64,000 nucleotides of DNA, from contig JAFRPL010000015.1 in NCBI GenBank assembly GCA_017429165.1, forward strand, positions 55,725 to 119,724, in the 5' to 3' direction. This DNA is from Clostridia bacterium. GTDB taxonomy: Bacteria; Bacillota; Clostridia; Oscillospirales; CAG-382. Of the stretch, positions 7,077 to 15,535 are shown one piece after another (positions within the stretch are counted from its first letter, which is position 1; each line of letters begins with the position of its first letter). The position numbers were made by a program, and so were the translations under genes. The notes below the pieces were generated by a model that worked only from the letters and a program-made list of their open reading frames with translations, did not search any database and had not been told where the DNA came from.

Positions 7077-7146
7077 GGCATTTTTGTAGAATAAACGCAG
7101 AAGATTTCATAATGCCCTTTTTATATCTGTGATCGGAGGAATCAAA

Positions 7147-8037
7147 ATGAAAAAACTGATTATGATCGCACTTGCATTTTTAATGATCGTCAGTCTGGCG
7201 GCTTGCGGGAGCGGAGTAAACAATCCGGGCGGGAACACGGAATCAAAGCCCGGCGGACAGCAAGGTACGAACAACAACTCGAATCCGTCGGGCACCGTAG
7301 TGGGAGTCGAAAGCGATCTCTATGCGCCGAACGCTGGGTCGCAGGCGGATAAGTATTGGCACGTCAAAGAAATCAAAATGGCGTACGAATTTGACAAAGA
7401 CGGAAAGTGCACCGTCAGGGATACCGTTTATTACCTGAAGAGCGCTTCCGATTACGAAGACGCAAAATCGCAGCTTGAAGGCGGCGGCTTTGCAGCGGTC
7501 TGGAGCTCAGATAAAACCTATTTCAGCATCGATCAGGGGTTCAAGGATTATACTTCGGTTGAAAATGCGATCGAAGAGGTGGAAAAAGACTTCCTGGGTT
7601 ACACGCTGACCTACTCGGGCGGCGGCACGAAATACGTCGATCCCCCGACGGACGAGCGCAAGATCGAGATCATGAAAGAAGTCTTCGGCTTTACCTGCGA
7701 CGATATCAAGACGTCGTTCGGGAACTACGAGTACAACATCAGAAAAAAGAACAAAGTGGCTGTCACTTATATTTCGGGGGCAGGCGCCGCCGATATAAAC
7801 GCGCTCGCAAAGGCGGCGTTTGACGTTTGTTCCGGCTTGGCTGACGAAGGGAAAATATACGATTACCTCGGAAAATACGGAAGCGAACTGACCGCCGCTC
7901 CCGAGACGGACAACATCTTTAATTCCGCCAAGTTCAATTATTTCAGAAACGGGAAAGAGATCACGGTCGAAGCCCAAATTTTGAACAGCGAAGGATACGA
8001 CAATACTCTGGCGCTTTTGATCGCGGTCGTCAACTGA
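7147..8037 (+). CDS. Lipoprotein of unknown function
   Basis: A 296-residue exported lipoprotein: signal peptide MKKLIMIALAFLMIVSLAAC with a clear lipobox, then a Gly/Asn/Pro-rich linker to about residue 55 and a soluble domain. The GGAGGAA site at 7134-7141 selects the ATG at 7147 rather than one 18 bp upstream. First of a run of envelope genes (7147-12932) placed directly after the two-component cassette. I do not recognise the soluble domain. Confidence 0.8.
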   Translation: MKKLIMIALAFLMIVSLAACGSGVNNPGGNTESKPGGQQGTNNNSNPSGTVVGVESDLYAPNAGSQADKYWHVKEIKMAYEFDKDGKCTVRDTVYYLKSASDYEDAKSQLEGGGFAAVWSSDKTYFSIDQGFKDYTSVENAIEEVEKDFLGYTLTYSGGGTKYVDPPTDERKIEIMKEVFGFTCDDIKTSFGNYEYNIRKKNKVAVTYISGAGAADINALAKAAFDVCSGLADEGKIYDYLGKYGSELTAAPETDNIFNSAKFNYFRNGKEITVEAQILNSEGYDNTLALLIAVVN

Positions 8038-8053
8038 GAATAAAAGTGCTGAA

Positions 8054-8968
8054 ATGGAAAAAGAATGTTCAAAACAACGTGGAATAACAAGCCTTTCAAA
8101 TAGGATCGCCGTGCTTCTTCTCTGTATGATCGTATTTCTGTTATCCGGTTGCGATGCGTTCCAGCAGCCCGGGAGCGATTCGCAGCAGGCTTCCGAAAAG
8201 GATCTTTTGAAAACCGTTGACGTTTGTATTTCACAGGGGCAGCGGTTTCAAAATCTGTTGATGGACGAAACGGCGGCGTACTTCTACGGCTTTGCTGGCT
8301 CCGCCGCCGGCTCTATGCGGCTTGCCGTCGAGCACATCCTGTGGCTGAAGGGAGAAGGCGACAGCTTTGACGCCCTCACCGCAGGAAGCCGATATACCGA
8401 CTGGGACCCGTTGGGAGAGCTCTGTTTCGCATCTCCTTATCCTTATTATTTTGAAGGGCTTCTCTACGACGTTCAAGGAATGGAAAAAGAAGCGGGCGAG
8501 GCGTATTCCCGCGCTTCGATCATGACCAACTTCCCGGACGGGGGTCTGGATTTCTATTACCTCAAGGATATGAGCGTGACGGATCTTTATGCGCTGCGCG
8601 ATAAGCTGCGCGCAACAGAAAACGGGATCTATGAGTATTATTCGCCCGTCATCTACGGTTACGAACGATCGGTCTACGCTTCGTCCGCGGAGTATTTACT
8701 GCTCGACGCCTATGAACTTCTTGAACACGAAAGCTACGAGGCGGCGATGGTACCGGCGCGTTACGGGATTCGACAGAACCCAAAAAACGAAGACGGCTGG
8801 GTAATTGCCGTCACGGCAGCCATGTATGCCGACGAACCCTACCAGGCGGCAAAATGGCTTGAGGAAGGTTTGAAGTATTTCCCCAAGAGTGAAGGTCTCG
8901 GAATTCTCCGCAAAGCACTGACCGATATCAGCGCCGGCGCAGGAGCGGAAGGAGGCGTAAACGGATGA
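8054..8968 (+). CDS. Lipoprotein with TPR-like helical repeats
   Basis: 304 residues. The signal sequence ends in the lipobox LLSGC. The mature part is helical with TPR-like pairs, for example EYLLLDAYELLEHESYEAA and the pair near AMYADEPYQAAKWLEEGLKY followed by a third helix. Starts 16 bp after the previous gene and overlaps the next by ATGA, so it is part of the same operon. Probably a scaffold or interaction protein at the membrane surface; no enzyme motif seen. Confidence 0.75.
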   Translation: MEKECSKQRGITSLSNRIAVLLLCMIVFLLSGCDAFQQPGSDSQQASEKDLLKTVDVCISQGQRFQNLLMDETAAYFYGFAGSAAGSMRLAVEHILWLKGEGDSFDALTAGSRYTDWDPLGELCFASPYPYYFEGLLYDVQGMEKEAGEAYSRASIMTNFPDGGLDFYYLKDMSVTDLYALRDKLRATENGIYEYYSPVIYGYERSVYASSAEYLLLDAYELLEHESYEAAMVPARYGIRQNPKNEDGWVIAVTAAMYADEPYQAAKWLEEGLKYFPKSEGLGILRKALTDISAGAGAEGGVNG

Positions 8969-10530
8969 TGATAAAAAAGAAAGCAAAATCACTCGCGGTA
9001 ATACTGCTTGTCATTTGCTCGCTCTTTGTTATGATGCCGCAAACGCTTTCCTTGAACGTATCCGCCGCATCGAACGCGCCACTCGACGGGATCGACTATA
9101 CAAGGCTGACGCAGAAGGCGAGTACCGCCATGTCGAATTTTGACGTCCGGATGAAGATCGGTGACGTAGAGCTCAAGGGCCTGTTCGCCGGGTCGGAAGG
9201 CCTGACGATGGGCGAGATCAACGAAATTATTCTGTCACAACTGTCTCTTATGCATCTTGATCTGGAAGAGATCGCCGTGCTTTCCTCTCTCGGGGAAAAT
9301 CTTGAGCGCGCGCAATGGATCGAGTTCGGCAAAAAGCTTGCCGTCGCCCTTTCGGAATACATTCCTTCGGTCGGACCCGGAGGAACGGTAAGCCCGACCG
9401 ACCTTGTGAAATACGTCTTATACGGCACAGATCCCCTCGCCGCCGCTCCCGGCAGCATTCTGCAGGGAAAAACAAAGGACGCGCTCGAAAAAGAGATCAT
9501 TGACGCGCTGCAGAAAGAAGCGGCGAAAACGGGAAAACGTATCCCAAAGCAGGGCGGCGGTCTGTGGCTCGTCGGCTTTGCCCTGAATTCCATATCCGCC
9601 GGAGAAGATCTGCTCGACGATACCGAATATGACAAATTCTGCAAAAAACTTGAGGAAGAATATCAAAAGGTATCTGAATTCTATTCAAAATGCAGCCGGA
9701 AGCTCAACGACGAAGCCGAGCTCAAGAATTTCGGCAGAGGTGTGATCAAGTTTGATGAATACTCCGCCGCGACGTCCGAATGTACGTTCCTTGGGGTGGA
9801 CGGCGTGAGACTGCGCTATAAGCTTTCGGGAATGCTCAAAAAGCAGGTCGGTCCGGACGAAATGGTCGTGGCGGGCGACAATTCCGGCACGTACGAGGGA
9901 GATCTGAAGCTCGAGATCGAAGGATTTGATCTTGCAAACGATTTCGACGCCGTGTTTGCCGATAAGAGCACTCTCTGGAAAGGGACGCGGCACGTCAACG
10001 ACTGGGGACAGATCCTGTACCGCTTTGACGGCGCCGCCGCAAAATACCGCGACGAATTCCTGAACAAATTCATTTTCACCGTTAACCGACCGACTTATCT
10101 CAAACGAACTCTTGTCGGGCATTTCAAGGTGGTGATCCCGAAGGCGGAGATCAAAGGAAAGATGACGCCGGTGCTTTCGGGCGCGTTCAACAACGTTTCC
10201 GACGGGATCGACTTTCTCTTCCGCATGACCTTCGGCCAGGAATTCAAGACCCATGCGACAAAAGTGGGACCGTACGGCACTATTATCGATCTCGGCGTCC
10301 CGATCCAGCAATGGCATGTGGAAGCGCTTTTGCAGGGTGCGAAGTCGATAGGTTCCCTGCATTGCTCATGGGTGGGCAACGAGGCGGCACGGGTGATGAT
10401 GGAAGGGTCTGTGGGAGACGTTATGTACGGCGGGTCCGGGCAGGATATGCTGATCACCCCCTCGGATCTCGGCACCGTATGGAAACAGCTTGAAGAAGCG
10501 CCCGTATTGACGATATCCGTTTTTGAATAA
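8965..10530 (+). CDS. Large exported protein of unknown function
   Basis: 521 residues with a Sec signal peptide (KSLAVILLVICSLFVMMPQ, AxA-like cleavage near VSAASNA) and no lipobox or C-terminal anchor. The middle is rich in charged helices and the last third is beta-rich with many Gly residues. The ATG at 8965 overlaps the upstream stop; an alternative ATG lies one codon on. No family recognised. It is the only member of this cluster predicted to be released rather than lipid-anchored. Confidence 0.7.
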   Translation: MMIKKKAKSLAVILLVICSLFVMMPQTLSLNVSAASNAPLDGIDYTRLTQKASTAMSNFDVRMKIGDVELKGLFAGSEGLTMGEINEIILSQLSLMHLDLEEIAVLSSLGENLERAQWIEFGKKLAVALSEYIPSVGPGGTVSPTDLVKYVLYGTDPLAAAPGSILQGKTKDALEKEIIDALQKEAAKTGKRIPKQGGGLWLVGFALNSISAGEDLLDDTEYDKFCKKLEEEYQKVSEFYSKCSRKLNDEAELKNFGRGVIKFDEYSAATSECTFLGVDGVRLRYKLSGMLKKQVGPDEMVVAGDNSGTYEGDLKLEIEGFDLANDFDAVFADKSTLWKGTRHVNDWGQILYRFDGAAAKYRDEFLNKFIFTVNRPTYLKRTLVGHFKVVIPKAEIKGKMTPVLSGAFNNVSDGIDFLFRMTFGQEFKTHATKVGPYGTIIDLGVPIQQWHVEALLQGAKSIGSLHCSWVGNEAARVMMEGSVGDVMYGGSGQDMLITPSDLGTVWKQLEEAPVLTISVFE

Positions 10531-10560
10531 ATAAGATACAAAACCGAAGGAGATGCGAAT

Positions 10561-11934
10561 ATGAAAAAACTGCTGATATTGTTCATTGCGCTGACTTTGG
10601 CGCTTTCACTCGCCGCCTGCGGCGAAAACGGCTCATCCGATGATCCGTTGAAGCCCCGCGACGAAAACACCTCCCAAACCCAACCGAGCGGCGCTCAGGG
10701 TATCAAGGACGGCACGGGACTGTCGCTGGAGGCGATCCTGATGTACGTCGAGACGGGCGACACGGAATATTTCCGGCCGCGCGTACTTACCTCCTCCGAG
10801 CAGGCGGCTTTACGTGCCGACGTTGAAAAACAGGGCGGCAGCGTTACCTTTGACGTCGACGGTACGATCAACATCACAGGCAGCGATTCCAGCCGCATTA
10901 CAGTCCGCTCGGACGGCTCTGTTGAGGGCGTTGACGCGGACGGGCAGCCCTTCGGCTTCTCCAACAAAAAGGATTGGCCCTCGTCCGCTCTCGGATCTGC
11001 CGTTCCGAAAGCCGAATTCGGGATCAAAATGCATGTCGAAGACGACGAGAGCCTGATGATCATGTTCAAGGATGTCAGCTTCGATCAGGCAAAGGCGTAC
11101 GGACAACAACTCGCTTCCGCAGGCTTTACGGTCGATCCGAGCGAGCTCGAGATGAAAGAGAACGGCATGTACAGCTACAGCGGCACGAACGCCGACGGGA
11201 TCACAGCGGATTTTTCCTATATGGCGTCAGGAGGTGAGATCACCTGCGCTCTGACGGTAGGCAAACACACAGACGATCCCGGCGTCGACGTAACGCCCGG
11301 CGGAGCTGCCGGAACACCTTCCGATCTGCCCGCGCATTTCGCCTTCATGCTGCCCGACGGGAAAGGCGACTTCGACGTATATAATAACGACTATTTTTAT
11401 TCCGTAGAAAAAGCAGGCGGAACGCTTCCCGAGGCGAAAACCTTTGCTTCCCGCTGCGCCTCGAACGGATACGAGGAGCGGATGGTCCAGGAGAATAAAA
11501 ACGACGACGGCAGCGACGTCTATTTCGCCGTTTACACCAAAGATAAATATGAGATCCATATCTCGCTGAATATGCTCGAGAAAAAGTTGCAGATCGACCT
11601 GATCGAGACCCAAAGCGGGACGAATATCCCCGCCGGAACCGATTCGTGGCCGACGAGCGGACCGCTCACAAGGATCCCGAAGCCGGATTTCGGGACCGGT
11701 TTCACCATCCGGGACGACGGCGACTCCATCACGGTTTCGGTTACCGGCGCGACGGCGGCGAACTTTGCGCCTTATATGCAGAGTCTCCAAAACGCGGGCT
11801 TCACGGTATCCCCGGAATATGACGACGACGATGACGTCAAGCTCTATGAGGCGCATAACAAAGAAGGCTACGACGCTTACGTGCAATGGGCGTACGGCGT
11901 ATTCGCCGTCGGCGTGACCACGATACCGGAATAA
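10561..11934 (+). CDS. Lipoprotein with three similar domains
   Basis: 457 residues; lipobox LSLAAC at the end of the signal peptide, then a Ser/Thr/Pro linker. At least three related units can be seen, each with a pattern of acidic start, YAQ/YMQ-type helix (AYGQQLASAGFTV; FASRCASNGYEERM; YMQSLQNAGFTV) and a beta strand ending in aromatic-rich sequence. This looks like duplication of one small fold. Good ribosome site (GAAGGAGATG). Function unknown. Confidence 0.75.
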   Translation: MKKLLILFIALTLALSLAACGENGSSDDPLKPRDENTSQTQPSGAQGIKDGTGLSLEAILMYVETGDTEYFRPRVLTSSEQAALRADVEKQGGSVTFDVDGTINITGSDSSRITVRSDGSVEGVDADGQPFGFSNKKDWPSSALGSAVPKAEFGIKMHVEDDESLMIMFKDVSFDQAKAYGQQLASAGFTVDPSELEMKENGMYSYSGTNADGITADFSYMASGGEITCALTVGKHTDDPGVDVTPGGAAGTPSDLPAHFAFMLPDGKGDFDVYNNDYFYSVEKAGGTLPEAKTFASRCASNGYEERMVQENKNDDGSDVYFAVYTKDKYEIHISLNMLEKKLQIDLIETQSGTNIPAGTDSWPTSGPLTRIPKPDFGTGFTIRDDGDSITVSVTGATAANFAPYMQSLQNAGFTVSPEYDDDDDVKLYEAHNKEGYDAYVQWAYGVFAVGVTTIPE

Positions 11935-11975
11935 AGAAACAATGATGAATAAGTGATGAAACAGGAGGAGTCGAG

Positions 11976-12932
11976 ATGTTAAAGAAAACCATTTGCATGA
12001 TGATCGCCGCGCTTATGCTGCTGGGGCTTTGCGCCTGCGGCATCGGAGGGCCAAGCACCCCCTCCGGGCAGAATCAGGGCGGTGAAAATCAGGGCGGATC
12101 GCTTGCCGACGGTAAGTGGCCGGCGTCGGTCTATTCCAAGTACGGGATCGACGAAATATCCACAAAGGGAAAGATCGTTTATACCAATTTTGAGAACGAT
12201 AGCTCGTATCAATATGAGGTCTATTACAACGGTGTTACGCGCGAAGAGCTTGTCGCCTGGACGAACGGTCTTTTTGAAAACGGTTTTCGCGCTGCCGACA
12301 GGGACAAGGAAAGGCTGACGAATTCTACGTATTTCTATGATATTATGATCTACGGCAAGGAAGAAAAACAGCCGTACAGGATGCGCATCAGCTTTGACTT
12401 TGGAGACGGCATGGATTTTGAATATTATGCGTATTACGACGATCCGAATCCCAACTACACCGTGGTAGAGAGAAAAGACGATTACGGCGAAGAGCACGCT
12501 TACATCGAATACAACCTGTGCGTTTCTCTCAATCCCATGAACAACAAAGAGGAATATGAGGGCGAATTCGCTTCGCTCGGGCTGAAAGCGGAAGACCTGA
12601 AGGGCTTGCAAAACGTTCGCAAGGTGAGTATGGGCGAAGCGGCATATATGAGCTCGATCAACTTTGTTTTTTACTCCGACCACATCACCACGGAAGAGGA
12701 AGTCAATCAGTGCCGGGAGCTTCTGATCGACAAGCTCGCTGAAAATGGTGCGAAATTCTATGACGGTCTGAACGACAATATAGAACTGTCCGCAAGCGAA
12801 CTGAAGGAAAGCGGCAAAGGCAGCTACTACGTGGAGAACAGCGGCGTCAAATATATGATCATGGTTAATCCGGATTCCGGGGCCGGAGATTTTGGAGATT
12901 CTTACGGTCTGGTTCTGACCAAAAAGAACTGA
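11976..12932 (+). CDS. Lipoprotein related to the preceding gene
   Basis: 318 residues; signal peptide with lipobox GLCAC, a Gly/Gln-rich linker, then units resembling the neighbour: VTREELVAWTNGLFENGFRA parallels the helix-turn of the upstream repeats. Separated from the neighbour by 41 bp and followed after 15 bp by the next gene, with a GGAGGA site for each. A divergent tandem duplicate is the simplest reading. Function unknown. Confidence 0.75.
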   Translation: MLKKTICMMIAALMLLGLCACGIGGPSTPSGQNQGGENQGGSLADGKWPASVYSKYGIDEISTKGKIVYTNFENDSSYQYEVYYNGVTREELVAWTNGLFENGFRAADRDKERLTNSTYFYDIMIYGKEEKQPYRMRISFDFGDGMDFEYYAYYDDPNPNYTVVERKDDYGEEHAYIEYNLCVSLNPMNNKEEYEGEFASLGLKAEDLKGLQNVRKVSMGEAAYMSSINFVFYSDHITTEEEVNQCRELLIDKLAENGAKFYDGLNDNIELSASELKESGKGSYYVENSGVKYMIMVNPDSGAGDFGDSYGLVLTKKN

Positions 12933-12947
12933 ATAAAGGAGGATAAA

Positions 12948-13448
12948 ATGAGTTTACTGTCTAAACTTTTCGGCGGAGATAAAAACGCCGAAAAAGAGGT
13001 AAAAAATCTGCTGAACGGTTTGTTCGGCAATGCGCAGACAGGACAGCCTACGGCAGCCAAGCCGGAAACGCCCGCATCCGCACCCTCGACTCAGCCTGTA
13101 CAGAGCAACGCGCCAGCCGGCATACCGGCGGAGGAGAACCAGTACAACTATAACGGCACGTATGAGCAGTATTTTGAGCACGTGTTCGCCGAGGATTTCC
13201 CCGCTTACCGGTTTGAAAAGTCGTATATCGACGATTACGGCAAGCACCGCGTGATCTACACGTTTTTCAGCGGCGCGGGAAAAGCCCTTGTCGTTGAACT
13301 TATGACCGAATCGAGCGAAGCGGTAAAATTCAGAAATGACTGTATAAAAGCCGGCGTCCCGTATCTTCGCTTCTACTACGATCACGAGGGCTGGTGGAAT
13401 ACCCGTTCTTACCTGGTCGGACGTATGCGCGGCGTTCTCAACGCCTGA
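12948..13448 (+). CDS. Cytoplasmic 166-aa protein of unknown function next to the reverse transcriptase
   Basis: No signal peptide. Residues 1-25 look like a small amphipathic segment (SLLSKLFGGDKNAEKEV), 30-65 is a Pro/Ala/Thr-rich linker, and 70-166 is a folded domain with conserved-looking runs AGKALVVELM, KAGVPYLRFYYDHEGWWNTR and YLVGRMRGVL. The E...G-PY-RFYYDH pattern recalls some nuclease-like folds but this is only an impression. It is co-directional with the lipoproteins (15 bp gap, AAAGGAGGATAAA site) and ends 16 bp before the structured region that precedes the reverse transcriptase, so it may also be its partner. Confidence 0.7.
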   Translation: MSLLSKLFGGDKNAEKEVKNLLNGLFGNAQTGQPTAAKPETPASAPSTQPVQSNAPAGIPAEENQYNYNGTYEQYFEHVFAEDFPAYRFEKSYIDDYGKHRVIYTFFSGAGKALVVELMTESSEAVKFRNDCIKAGVPYLRFYYDHEGWWNTRSYLVGRMRGVLNA

Positions 13449-13463
13449 CGCGCACCAAAACTT

Positions 13464-13610
13464 GAAAAAAAGCAGAAAGAGAACGCTTTTGCGCCTGCGG
13501 CGGGCCCGGCACGGACAAACGTATGACTTCGCAGGCAGTCTGTGCGTGTACGGTCTTGTACATCCCGAAATTTTCGGGATTTAACGGATTCTCTTTCTGC
13601 TTTTTCTTTT
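13464..13610 (+). ncRNA. Structured non-coding region bounded by a 17-bp stem, upstream of the reverse transcriptase
   Basis: Arms 13467-13483 and 13589-13605 pair over 17 bp without mismatch and enclose 105 bases. Inside are a stem GCCTGCG/CGCAGGC (13493-13499 with 13530-13536), a hairpin TGTAC/GTACA (13547-13551 with 13558-13562) and a hairpin TCCCGA/TCGGGA (13563-13568 with 13574-13579). GCACGGA (13510-13516) can alternatively pair with TCTGTGC (13539-13545). The reverse transcriptase start follows 19 bases after the stem. This layout resembles retron msr-msd or the template RNAs of some defence reverse transcriptases, but no homology is claimed. Confidence 0.55.
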
Positions 13611-13623
13611 TTCGGGGTGAAGT

Positions 13624-14832
13624 ATGTCGCTTTTGGATCTGCTTTCGGACGAAGCCGTTTGGAATAGGTTTTATGAATATAAGTTATCGCTCGCCTGCCC
13701 AAAACAGTTTACGGGTGAGCTGCGCCGTTTTATCGACGGGAAGCGGTATCTGCCGGTGACGGAGCTTAGAAAAGAAGGCGGGCGGTTCCCTATCCCGCGC
13801 AAGTCTGTCATCTCAAAAATGGGCAGCGATAAAAAGCGCGTGGTATACACTTATCCCGAAGACGAAAACACGGTGATGAAGCTGCTGACCTGGCTGATCC
13901 TGCGGCAATACGACCGGATATTCAGCCGTAACCTCTATTCGTTCCGCCCCGGCAGGACCGCAAAGGACGCGGTGCGCGACCTGCTGAAAACCGGGAAGGT
14001 CTCGCAGGCGTACTCCTACAAGGTCGATATCCACGACTATTTCAATTCCGTCCCCGTCGAGCGGCTGCTCCAGGTGCTCAAAACCGCGCTTGAAGACGAC
14101 GAAGAGCTGTATTCGTTCCTTGAAAGACTGCTCCTCGAACCTTGCGTATCGGATCGCGGGAAAGAGACCGTCGAGCGCAAGGGCATTATGGCGGGAACGC
14201 CGCTGTCGTCCTTTTTTGCAAATCTGTACCTCTCCGGGCTTGACCGACATTTTGATGAATCGGGCGTGATCTACGCCAGATATTCCGACGATATGATCGT
14301 GTTTTCACCCGATGAATCCGAGGTTAAAAAACATGCTGAACTTATCCGTTCGTTTCTTGACGCGCACTTGCTGACCGTGAATCCCGCAAAGGAAAACTTC
14401 GGCGCACCCGGAGGAGGATTCGTTTTTCTCGGCTTTTCCTGCGTCGGCGACAAGGTGGATATCGCTCCGGCAACCGTGAAAAAGCTGAAACAGAAAATGC
14501 GCCGCAAGCGCGACGCGCTCACGCGGTGGCAAAAGCGCAACGGATTCGGCGGCGAGAAAGCGGCAAAAGCGTTTATCCGTATTTTCAACGCCAAACTGCT
14601 TGAATCCCCGCGCGACAATGAGCTTTCCTGGAGCCACTGGTTCTTTTCGGTGATCAACACGACCGAAAGCCTGCACGCTATCGATCTTTATGCACAGGAC
14701 TGTCTGCGATATCTGATCAGCGAAAGGCACACAAAAACGCGATTTAACGTGCGGTATGAGGATCTGAAAGCACTCGGTTACCGTTCGCTTGTCCACGCCT
14801 ACTATGAACATATCGCCGATGCAAACGGATAA
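13624..14832 (+). CDS. Reverse transcriptase, class not assigned
   Basis: 402 residues with an ordered set of reverse transcriptase motifs: KVDIHDYFNSVPV (motif A), KGIMAGTPLSSFFANLYL (motif B), YARYSDDMIVF with the catalytic YSDD (motif C), then LTVNPAKENF and FVFLGFSC (D/E). The remaining 120 residues form a basic helical thumb-like part ending in RYEDLKALGYRSLVHAYYEH. There is no maturase, endonuclease or integrase domain, and the VTG and NAxxH features of retrons are not seen, so a group II-like or unknown-group (defence-type) enzyme is more likely. Ribosome site GGGGTGA at 13614-13620. It follows the structured region 13464-13610 and is closed by its own terminator. Confidence 0.85.
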   Translation: MSLLDLLSDEAVWNRFYEYKLSLACPKQFTGELRRFIDGKRYLPVTELRKEGGRFPIPRKSVISKMGSDKKRVVYTYPEDENTVMKLLTWLILRQYDRIFSRNLYSFRPGRTAKDAVRDLLKTGKVSQAYSYKVDIHDYFNSVPVERLLQVLKTALEDDEELYSFLERLLLEPCVSDRGKETVERKGIMAGTPLSSFFANLYLSGLDRHFDESGVIYARYSDDMIVFSPDESEVKKHAELIRSFLDAHLLTVNPAKENFGAPGGGFVFLGFSCVGDKVDIAPATVKKLKQKMRRKRDALTRWQKRNGFGGEKAAKAFIRIFNAKLLESPRDNELSWSHWFFSVINTTESLHAIDLYAQDCLRYLISERHTKTRFNVRYEDLKALGYRSLVHAYYEHIADANG

Positions 14833-14837
14833 CAGAA

Positions 14838-14872
14838 CGCCTCCGAACCTTTTGCGGCTCGGAGGCGCCTTT
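14838..14872 (+). terminator. Intrinsic terminator after the reverse transcriptase
   Basis: Nine-bp stem CGCCTCCGA/TCGGAGGCG (14838-14846 with 14859-14867) followed by CCTTTTAT. It also lies at the end of the convergent minus-strand pair. Confidence 0.85.
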
Positions 14873-14876
14873 TATA

Positions 14877-15158
14877 CTATACGTCGCTCTTTGTCAGGAT
14901 CTCGCCTGCCTCAATCATCAATTTGACGCCAAGCCGGAATCCGTAGGAGAACGCTTCCACTTCGGCTGCGGCGTGCATTTCCTTTACCGCCGATTCGTAT
15001 TTCTCAAACAGTTCGGCTTGCTCGGGGGATAAAGCGTCATTCAACCTTTCCTGATCCTTTGCCGCAATGCGAAGCAGGTTTTTGTACTCTTTATTCCCTT
15101 CGAGAAATTCTTCGACCGGATGGACGTTCCCGTACCACAAGTTTTCGAGTAAAGTCAT
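14877..15158 (-). CDS. DUF6809-like small helical protein, TnpV partner
   Basis: 93 residues, all-helical and acidic: LLENLWYGNVHPVEEF at the start and FSYGFRLGVKLMIEA near the end match the pattern of small proteins often encoded next to tnpV in Clostridial elements (DUF6809-like). It overlaps tnpV by ATGA (15155-15158), so the two are coupled. Biochemical role unknown; family assignment is from memory of the pattern, not a search. Confidence 0.6.
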   Translation of the reverse strand: MTLLENLWYGNVHPVEEFLEGNKEYKNLLRIAAKDQERLNDALSPEQAELFEKYESAVKEMHAAAEVEAFSYGFRLGVKLMIEAGEILTKSDV

Positions 15159-15535
15159 TCAAACACCACCTCGCTTTTCACGATCTCTTCGGCGCGGTTG
15201 CGGATGGAGTTCATACGGCGCACCCATTCCATCTGGTCGGCGGCTTTGAGCCTCTCGGTTACGCCCTCAGCACGTTTCATTTGCTCAACCAGCTGAGAAA
15301 ACATTTCTTCCGCCTGCCGGTCAACCTCTTCGATCTGCTCTTTCAGCTTGCCCGACAGCATAAGTCCCGAATAAGTGACCCGCTTATGGTTGCGCAGATA
15401 ATCGTGATACATCATCCCGAATCTGCCGACTTTGTGCGCCTCCGGCGCTTCCAGGCAGGGATAATAGTAGTCGCCCACCAATTCATATTTCAGCCCGGTT
15501 CTTTCGTCTGTAATGCTCTTTTCAAGTTCTTTCAT
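15155..15535 (-). CDS. tnpV: TnpV-family transposon protein
   Basis: 126 residues with the family hallmarks: a YELVGDYYYPCL start, the core RFGMMYHDYLRNHKR, and the conserved C-terminal part EGVTERLKAADQMEWVRRMN continuing to NRAEEIV. TnpV accompanies TnpX-type recombinases on Tn4451-like elements; its role is not established. It is the last mobile-type gene before the host-like region and probably marks the right end of the first element (end between about 15.54 and 15.80 kb). Confidence 0.85.
   Translation of the reverse strand: MKELEKSITDERTGLKYELVGDYYYPCLEAPEAHKVGRFGMMYHDYLRNHKRVTYSGLMLSGKLKEQIEEVDRQAEEMFSQLVEQMKRAEGVTERLKAADQMEWVRRMNSIRNRAEEIVKSEVVFE

Follow-up and report, generated by a model that had tools for sequence, protein, structure and literature searches.

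The 64,000-nucleotide stretch of Clostridia bacterium DNA that we analyzed (hereafter the window) carries a UG26 reverse transcriptase (RT), an RT-5 noncoding RNA (ncRNA), and an RTasCOG2852 partner protein, which we judge, with somewhat better than even confidence, to form a DRT10-like synthesizer of tandem-repeat DNA templated by the RNA. Both the RT group and the RNA family had already been catalogued, in PADLOC and Rfam, respectively, and our comparisons across genomes establish that the two belong together. The pseudoknot, the central stem, the proposed template loop, and the tie between RNA and RT are new here, although part of this may already be in print; our literature search, for which subscription papers were mostly outside the scope, listed no account of how UG26 or RT-5 works. 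The features of the unit are as follows.

12948 to 13448, plus strand: RTasCOG2852 partner gene, 166 amino acids (PADLOC, 5.9e-49)
13467 to 13605, plus strand: RT-5 ncRNA from arm to arm of the central stem, 139 nt (Rfam RF03026 at 13489 to 13592)
13467 to 13483, plus strand: 5′ arm of the central stem, AAAAAGCAGAAAGAGAA, 17 bp with 13589 to 13605
13493 to 13499, plus strand: 5′ strand of the pseudoknot, GCCUGCG, paired with 13530 to 13536
13503 to 13506, plus strand: 5′ arm of the short helix, paired with 13552 to 13555
13509 to 13516, plus strand: 5′ arm of the main stem, paired with 13542 to 13549
13525 to 13540, plus strand: inner hairpin of 4 bp, its loop holding the 3′ pseudoknot strand (13530 to 13536)
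13542 to 13549, plus strand: 3′ arm of the main stem, paired with 13509 to 13516
13548 to 13561, plus strand: GUAC-GGUCUU-GUAC, a rival template that we disfavor, its middle being the 3′ arm of the short helix
13562 to 13580, plus strand: last hairpin, with covariation among 166 RNAs
13577 to 13581, plus strand: predicted template segment A (GGAUU), a direct repeat with 13586 to 13590
13582 to 13585, plus strand: predicted template segment B (UAAC), from its placement as in the DRT10 template
13586 to 13590, plus strand: predicted realignment segment A′ (GGAUU), with an A/A′ association on the RT tree
13589 to 13605, plus strand: 3′ arm of the central stem, UUCUCUUUCUGCUUUUU, 17 uninterrupted pairs with 13467 to 13483
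13624 to 14832, plus strand: UG26 RT, 402 amino acids (PADLOC RT_UG26, residues 1 to 396)
14839 to 14866, plus strand: possible weak RT terminator, an 8-bp inverted repeat (14839 to 14846 with 14859 to 14866), then GCC, then TTTT

RT_UG26 was the best RT match in a PADLOC profile scan of the RT (4.5e-170 and 563.7 bits over residues 1 to 396 of 402). Among the best 25 of 75 matches, the next named groups were UG17 (5.1e-32, 109.2 bits), UG4, UG27, and Drt9 (6.2e-28, 95.8 bits), with a general RT model at 3.3e-35 and lower scores for Drt3a (72.9 bits) and Drt2 (63 bits). The original prediction had proposed an RT-ncRNA unit of an unassigned class; the unit stands, but it is not unassigned, because PADLOC holds models for the RT and the partner and Rfam holds one for the RNA. 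From its nearest profiles, UG17, Drt9, and Drt3a among them, UG26 appears to fall in the class 2 RTs. The predicted YSDD motif was confirmed in the catalytic box (RYSDD), with its aspartates intact, and residues D135, D222, D223, R362, and Y378 were unchanged in 173 of 173 RTs. Of the RT residues, Tyr378 is our first candidate for priming.

The RT modeled with AlphaFold2 (mean pLDDT, 89) had the GsI-IIC group II intron RT as its first fold neighbor, followed by the G2L4 RT and DRT9, with DRT2 at rank 37, and a phmmer search linked the window RT with a telomerase RT (TERT) chain, 3du5, at an E value of 2e-4. We rejected a group II intron RT since the protein scored 111.2 bits against a cut-off of 300 for TIGR04416, RVT_1 was its only Pfam domain, with no maturase domain, and an Rfam search of the 64-kb window found no intron RNA at the gathering score. 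A retron was likewise rejected, with 52.2 bits for retron_St85_RT against a cut-off of 235; other retron types were judged from the NCBIfam and PADLOC matches listed (for PADLOC, the best 25 of 75). All NCBIfam models considered (group II, Drt2, Drt3a, retron St85, Drt4, Drt5, and AbiA) were far under their own cut-offs. The original prediction was right in that the enzyme scores neither as a retron (St85 model) nor as a group II intron RT. Its claim that the RT gene has its own terminator was too strong: the inverted repeat is present, but GCC precedes the TTTT and our consensus scan did not list it. Directly after the RT, on the minus strand, Pfam identified DUF6809 and transposon-encoded TnpV genes (14877 to 15535). 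UG26 RTs have been reported in cold-seep viruses (PMC10504277); the one relative that we found on a viral contig, at 25% identity, was judged unrelated.

The RNA matched RT-5 over positions 1 to 104 of the model with 86.2 bits against a cut-off of 45.7 (E value of 1.2e-15 in the search of the 64-kb window). The Rfam model has neither the pseudoknot nor the central stem, both of which we add here. The central stem, predicted as 17 bp free of mismatches, could be read as such, and only 18 bases (13606 to 13623) separate it from the RT start codon at 13624, in keeping with the predicted position just before the gene. The 3′ end of the RNA may lie in the T run at 13601 to 13612, where the closing stem enters a T-rich stretch. 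The segment from 13449 to 13640 had a folding energy of -66.9 kcal/mol against a mean of -53.6 (standard deviation, 4.4) for 200 shuffles, 2 of which were as low (z = -3.06).

For analysis of covariation, we aligned with MAFFT 166 distinct RNAs drawn from the 174 that were long enough and free of N, and compared helix columns with shuffles and with slid versions of each helix; these counts ignore relatedness among the 166 RNAs. The 7-bp pseudoknot was 99.1% paired against a shuffle mean of 93.9, with two-sided changes at 7 of 7 pairs, and the main stem was 94.5% paired against 71.8 (7 of 8 pairs). The corresponding values were 92.4% against 83.1 for the inner hairpin (4 of 4 pairs), 86.9% against 79.8 for the short helix (4 of 4 pairs), 80.7% against 61.9 for the last hairpin (7 of 8 pairs), and 81.9% against 75.1 for the central stem (17 of 17 pairs, the outer four weak). 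All six helices exceeded their shuffles, and every slid version was lower. Because of the RT-5 match at 1.2e-15 and the two-sided helix changes in 166 relatives, we conclude that the RNA fold is beyond chance. The inner hairpins and alternative pairing of the original prediction therefore exist, the alternative pairing being the conserved pseudoknot, and the search for RT homologues sharing no stem or covariation, which would have spoken against it, found the opposite. Five loci (L172 to L176) formed a very divergent RT-5 subgroup with 36.8 to 46.9 bits, four of them under the cut-off; their last hairpin, AUUGCUUACAGCAAU, is identical across all five RNAs.

In the window, the loop that follows the last hairpin and leads into the closing stem reads GGAUU-UAAC-GGAUU, with A overlapping the last hairpin by 4 bases and A′ overlapping the closing stem by 2. 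DRT10 RNAs carry an A-B-A′ arrangement just after a stable stem-loop, in which A-B is copied and A′ re-anneals the product (PMC12632851). Several divergent RNAs have other long repeats at this place, including CUGUU-AAAUU-CUGUU (L014), UGUUUC-AAAGC-UGUUUC (L146), GUUUU-AAA-GUUUU (L007), and CGAUUU-AA-CGAUUU (L148); in many RNAs (A = GAUUU, A′ = UCUUC) the two segments have only UU in common.

We analyzed the first bases of A and A′ in 167 RNAs and found A with A in 63 of 113, C with C in 20 of 27 (3 unreadable), and G with G in 24 of 27. Along a FastTree phylogeny of the RTs, none of 3,000 simulations reached the observed mutual information or identity excess for the 164 readable RNAs, and the A/C subset that remains without the G group (137 RNAs) gave P values of 0.004 for mutual information and 0.0003 for identity excess. 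The plain count of matching first bases (107 of 164) gave a P value of 0.09 in the tree simulation, or 0.018 when A was kept constant. The number of independent pairs was too small (roughly 2.6 the same way and 0.5 the opposite way for A). Linkage is also seen among RNA columns at large: 3 of 5,778 column pairs lay above the A/A′ identity excess, and 25 did so in the A/C subset.

Repeat counts were made on 57 representatives under 75% RNA identity. Repeats of at least 4 in or by the loop occurred in 39 of 57, against 27.2 expected from shuffles (P = 0.003) or 34.0 from half-swaps (P = 0.029), and in 9 of these 39 the best repeat was UCUU within the pyrimidine strand rather than A/A′; P values for loop-wide counts overall ran from 0.003 to 0.055. 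Repeats bridging A and A′ numbered 45 against 42.7 expected for lengths of at least 3 (P = 0.21), 23 against 18.7 for length 4 (P = 0.051), and 12 against 7.8 for length 5 (P = 0.030). Counted by position, motifs in the two bins covering the loop (31 against 22.7 and 54 against 64.7 expected) formed no clear peak. An earlier permutation of 77 unique A/A′ pairs, made without tree correction, gave a mean of 3.17 against 2.95 (P = 0.00035) and 26 against 19.2 pairs of at least 4 (P = 0.011), and the 7 noncanonical pairs alone, treated in the same way, gave a P value of 0.50. The repeat signal across relatives is thus moderate at best in its excess over chance, and support for the template comes mainly from the shared place of the loop, the tree-based link between A and A′, and the different long repeats of divergent RNAs.

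Our initial idea of the template was a different one, in which the same unit copies the 10-base repeat in GUAC-GGUCUU-GUAC directly after the main stem. Motifs of at least 4 peak there (54 against 14.8 expected among the 57 representatives), a stronger peak than that of the loop, and GUA...GUA is kept in many divergent RT-5 RNAs. However, GUAC reads the same as its reverse complement, so that the repeat may be a hairpin, and the middle GGUC covaries with 13503 to 13506 and is likely helical; at the pair 13505/13553, for example, we counted CG in 81, UA in 48, UG in 29, and GC in 5 of 166 RNAs. Nor does this segment occupy the place of the template loop as published accounts position it in DRT9, DRT10, and DRT3a. 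We set this idea behind on account of the helix covariation and the palindrome, and consider it unlikely.

RT-5 loci were collected from whole genomes and from a search with the RT alone (at least 80 loci). At an E value of 1e-10 or better, we counted 2,693 relatives of the RT, some of which lie outside UG26. A pattern search recovered RT-5 in 132 of 178 sequences, and 44 of the remaining 46 were read by eye, leaving L063 and L097. Among the 80 matches listed for the RT sequence alone, 79 had the RT-5 pattern, the exception being L063, with only 118 bases before the RT match. Merging 6 duplicates among the 175 readable RT-5 loci left 169 distinct places. The partner upstream and the RT downstream flanked the RNA in 110 of 175 loci (106 of 169 places), so that the 166-amino-acid product, which the original prediction had only possibly included, belongs to the unit in most relatives. 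The RT alone lay beside RT-5 in 37 loci (36 places), and neither gene lay within the fetched stretch in 28 loci (27 places), all from one bacterial family (f47). A second UG26 unit of partner, RT-5 RNA, and RT lies about 55 kb before the window copy on the same contig (RNA at 13870 to 13975 of contig C10; loci L002 and L179), with the RNA repeat AUUU-CAAAGC-AUUU and an RT 41% identical (165 of 402 residues) to the window RT.

In family f47, RT-5 RNA was present in 80 of 115 genomes, one in each, across 4 of 5 genera, and UG26 was found in 30 of the 31 RNA-bearing genomes searched out of these 80 (all except G413). RNA and RT shared a contig in 26 f47 genomes, always on the same strand with the RT downstream; the two were adjacent in 3, 1.3 kb apart in 1, and 2.9 to 9.5 kb apart in 22. 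No partner gene was found near the RT in 30 of 30 f47 RT loci, within flanks of 1.5 kb or less. At two f47 loci (L187 and L207), the usual partner is replaced by an open reading frame (ORF) of at least 498 codons, truncated at the edge of the fetched sequence, whose stop codon overlaps the start of the RT; a segment of this ORF, read by eye, resembles an HD-GYP domain. Of 64 RNAs that lack a neighboring partner gene, many of which come from f47 and so are related, 50 were preceded by a perfect TATAAT, compared with 2 of 102 RNAs that have such a gene. Because the RNA is often far from the RT in f47 and TATAAT occurs where no partner precedes, the RT-5 RNA is a unit of its own, which probably acts in trans and is cotranscribed when it lies behind the partner gene.

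Such carriage in f47, high for a defense gene, and the frequent separation of RNA and RT there would also fit a cell function passed on vertically, instead of defense, in at least one bacterial family. Against this, carriage elsewhere is patchy: RT-5 occurred in 3 of the 63 genomes from the family to which the window belongs, far below the f47 level, and in 15 of 391 genomes sampled from the class. The transposon-type TnpV gene downstream of the RT and the presence of two units with such divergent RTs in one genome also fit an accessory function, and we regard a cell function of this kind as improbable.

Comparison with characterized systems supports placing the template in the loop before the closing stem. 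In the class 2 systems described to date, cis ncRNAs serve as templates for tandem-repeat cDNA, and the DRT3 template loop has a location similar to that of its counterparts in DRT9 and DRT10 (PMC13174585); the RT-5 loop also lies there. The antiphage system DRT10 (UG17) likewise combines an RT with an RNA that has a central stem and A-B-A′ between its last stem-loop and its closing stem (PMC12632851). From the last base of A′ it is 15 nt to the end of the closing stem here and 18 nt to the end of the RNA in Eco3DRT10, and the core of A′ (GAUU) lies at 121 to 124 of 139 here and at 116 to 119 of 137 in Eco3DRT10, as derived from the numbered mutants of that paper. In contrast to DRT10, the window RT is not of the UG17 type (109.2 against 563.7 bits for UG26), RTasCOG2852 stands in place of SLATT, and the RT-5 RNA has a pseudoknot, supported here by covariation. 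The main text of the DRT10 paper does not name UG26 (PMC12632851).

Four UG17-type loci each had a longest repeat of 4 nt ahead of the closing stem (GUAA-UAAU-GUAA, UCAA-CGGUAC-UCAA, UAAC-UUAUUG-UAAC, and UUAA-CGGUC-UUAA). A repeat of this length arose in 41 to 62% of the shuffles of each locus and in all four together in about 5%, and folded models of two of these loci (L213 and L214) pair part of the repeat, making the UG17 loci weak controls that agree with the A-B-A′ layout but do not prove it. An Rfam search of a UG17 locus (L211) gave no match up to an E value of 0.1. These shuffles and the counts of bridging repeats lowered our confidence in a DRT10-like synthesizer slightly, from reasonably probable to a little above even.

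DRT9 (UG28) resembles the window system in RT fold, and in both DRT9 (PMC12483538) and DRT3a (PMC13174585) the template sits in a comparable loop within a structured RNA. The template of DRT9 is a U tract (PMC12483538), in contrast to three uridines in the putative A-B-A′ here, and that of DRT3a is ACACAC (PMC13174585). RT-5 could nevertheless be copied otherwise, into a homopolymer from a U run as in DRT9 or into a gene by rolling circle as in DRT2, given a U-rich run in the loop, mostly UUU or UUUC among the RNAs listed, and the resemblance of the RT model to the DRT9 and DRT2 enzymes. The run is only three uridines long and stands beside bases that covary as A/A′, and the profile scores favor UG26 at 563.7 bits over Drt9 at 95.8 and Drt2 at 63, making these modes of copying quite unlikely. 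We dropped a riboswitch or mere leader regulating the RT gene as extremely improbable, for even though most of the loci examined place the RNA just ahead of the RT start codon, the two are 2.9 to 9.5 kb apart in 22 of the 26 f47 genomes that carry them on one contig, and a -10 box precedes the RNA where the partner gene is missing.

The partner protein has a conserved N-terminal stretch, a variable linker, and a C-terminal domain with weak resemblance to the PD-(D/E)XK nuclease fold, and it possibly has a nuclease fold. Foldseek gave no match under an E value of 0.001, a profile of the partner gave none among PDB sequences, and Pfam found no domain in the window protein and at best an E value of 0.0038 in other members. 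E117 was unchanged in 32 aligned members and is followed by LM in the window protein; T105-F106 sits where we would presume the D-F of a PD-(D/E)XK nuclease to be. SLATT was absent from four flanking ORFs examined with Pfam and three with PADLOC. Upstream, a run of genes (7129 to 12932), several with lipoprotein-like N termini, stops 15 bases before the partner gene, and three of them have homologues at ten further UG26 loci among those fetched (nine places), the second unit of this genome being one. We rejected lipoprotein genes as a fixed component, as a lipobox filter flagged 11 of 107 partner loci; this filter gave false matches and misses, including the window's own, and 36 of the upstream ORFs were incomplete.

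In the DRT10-like synthesizer that we favor, the RT would copy the 9-base A-B stretch of the RT-5 RNA until the last hairpin halts it; the new cDNA 3′ end would then re-pair with A′ so that A-B is copied again. The predicted product is a long single-stranded tandem-repeat DNA, (GTTAAATCC)n, with synthesis primed by the RT itself, most likely on Tyr378. The partner may sense the repeat DNA or act on it, taking the role of SLATT in DRT10, and the outcome, as family membership suggests, would probably be phage defense; these two steps have the least support. The predicted short template, alignment segment, and upstream boundary stem recall telomerase and its RNA (TERT/TR), an analogy of mechanism by which we claim no membership for UG26 and RT-5. 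More tentatively, and with considerable doubt, the system may represent a further telomerase-like family, with a pseudoknotted RNA bearing template and alignment segments, priming on an invariant tyrosine, a dead-nuclease partner that reads the repeats, and one lineage in which a trans-acting RNA is widespread and chromosomally fixed.

If the DRT10-like reading is true, telomerase-like repeat addition would reach one more RT family, which would bear on the claim that telomerase derives from bacteria (PMC12632851). Rfam RT-5 and UG26, for which our searches listed no function, would then have one, along with a product sequence open to testing, and Tyr378 and the loop would be singled out for mutation.
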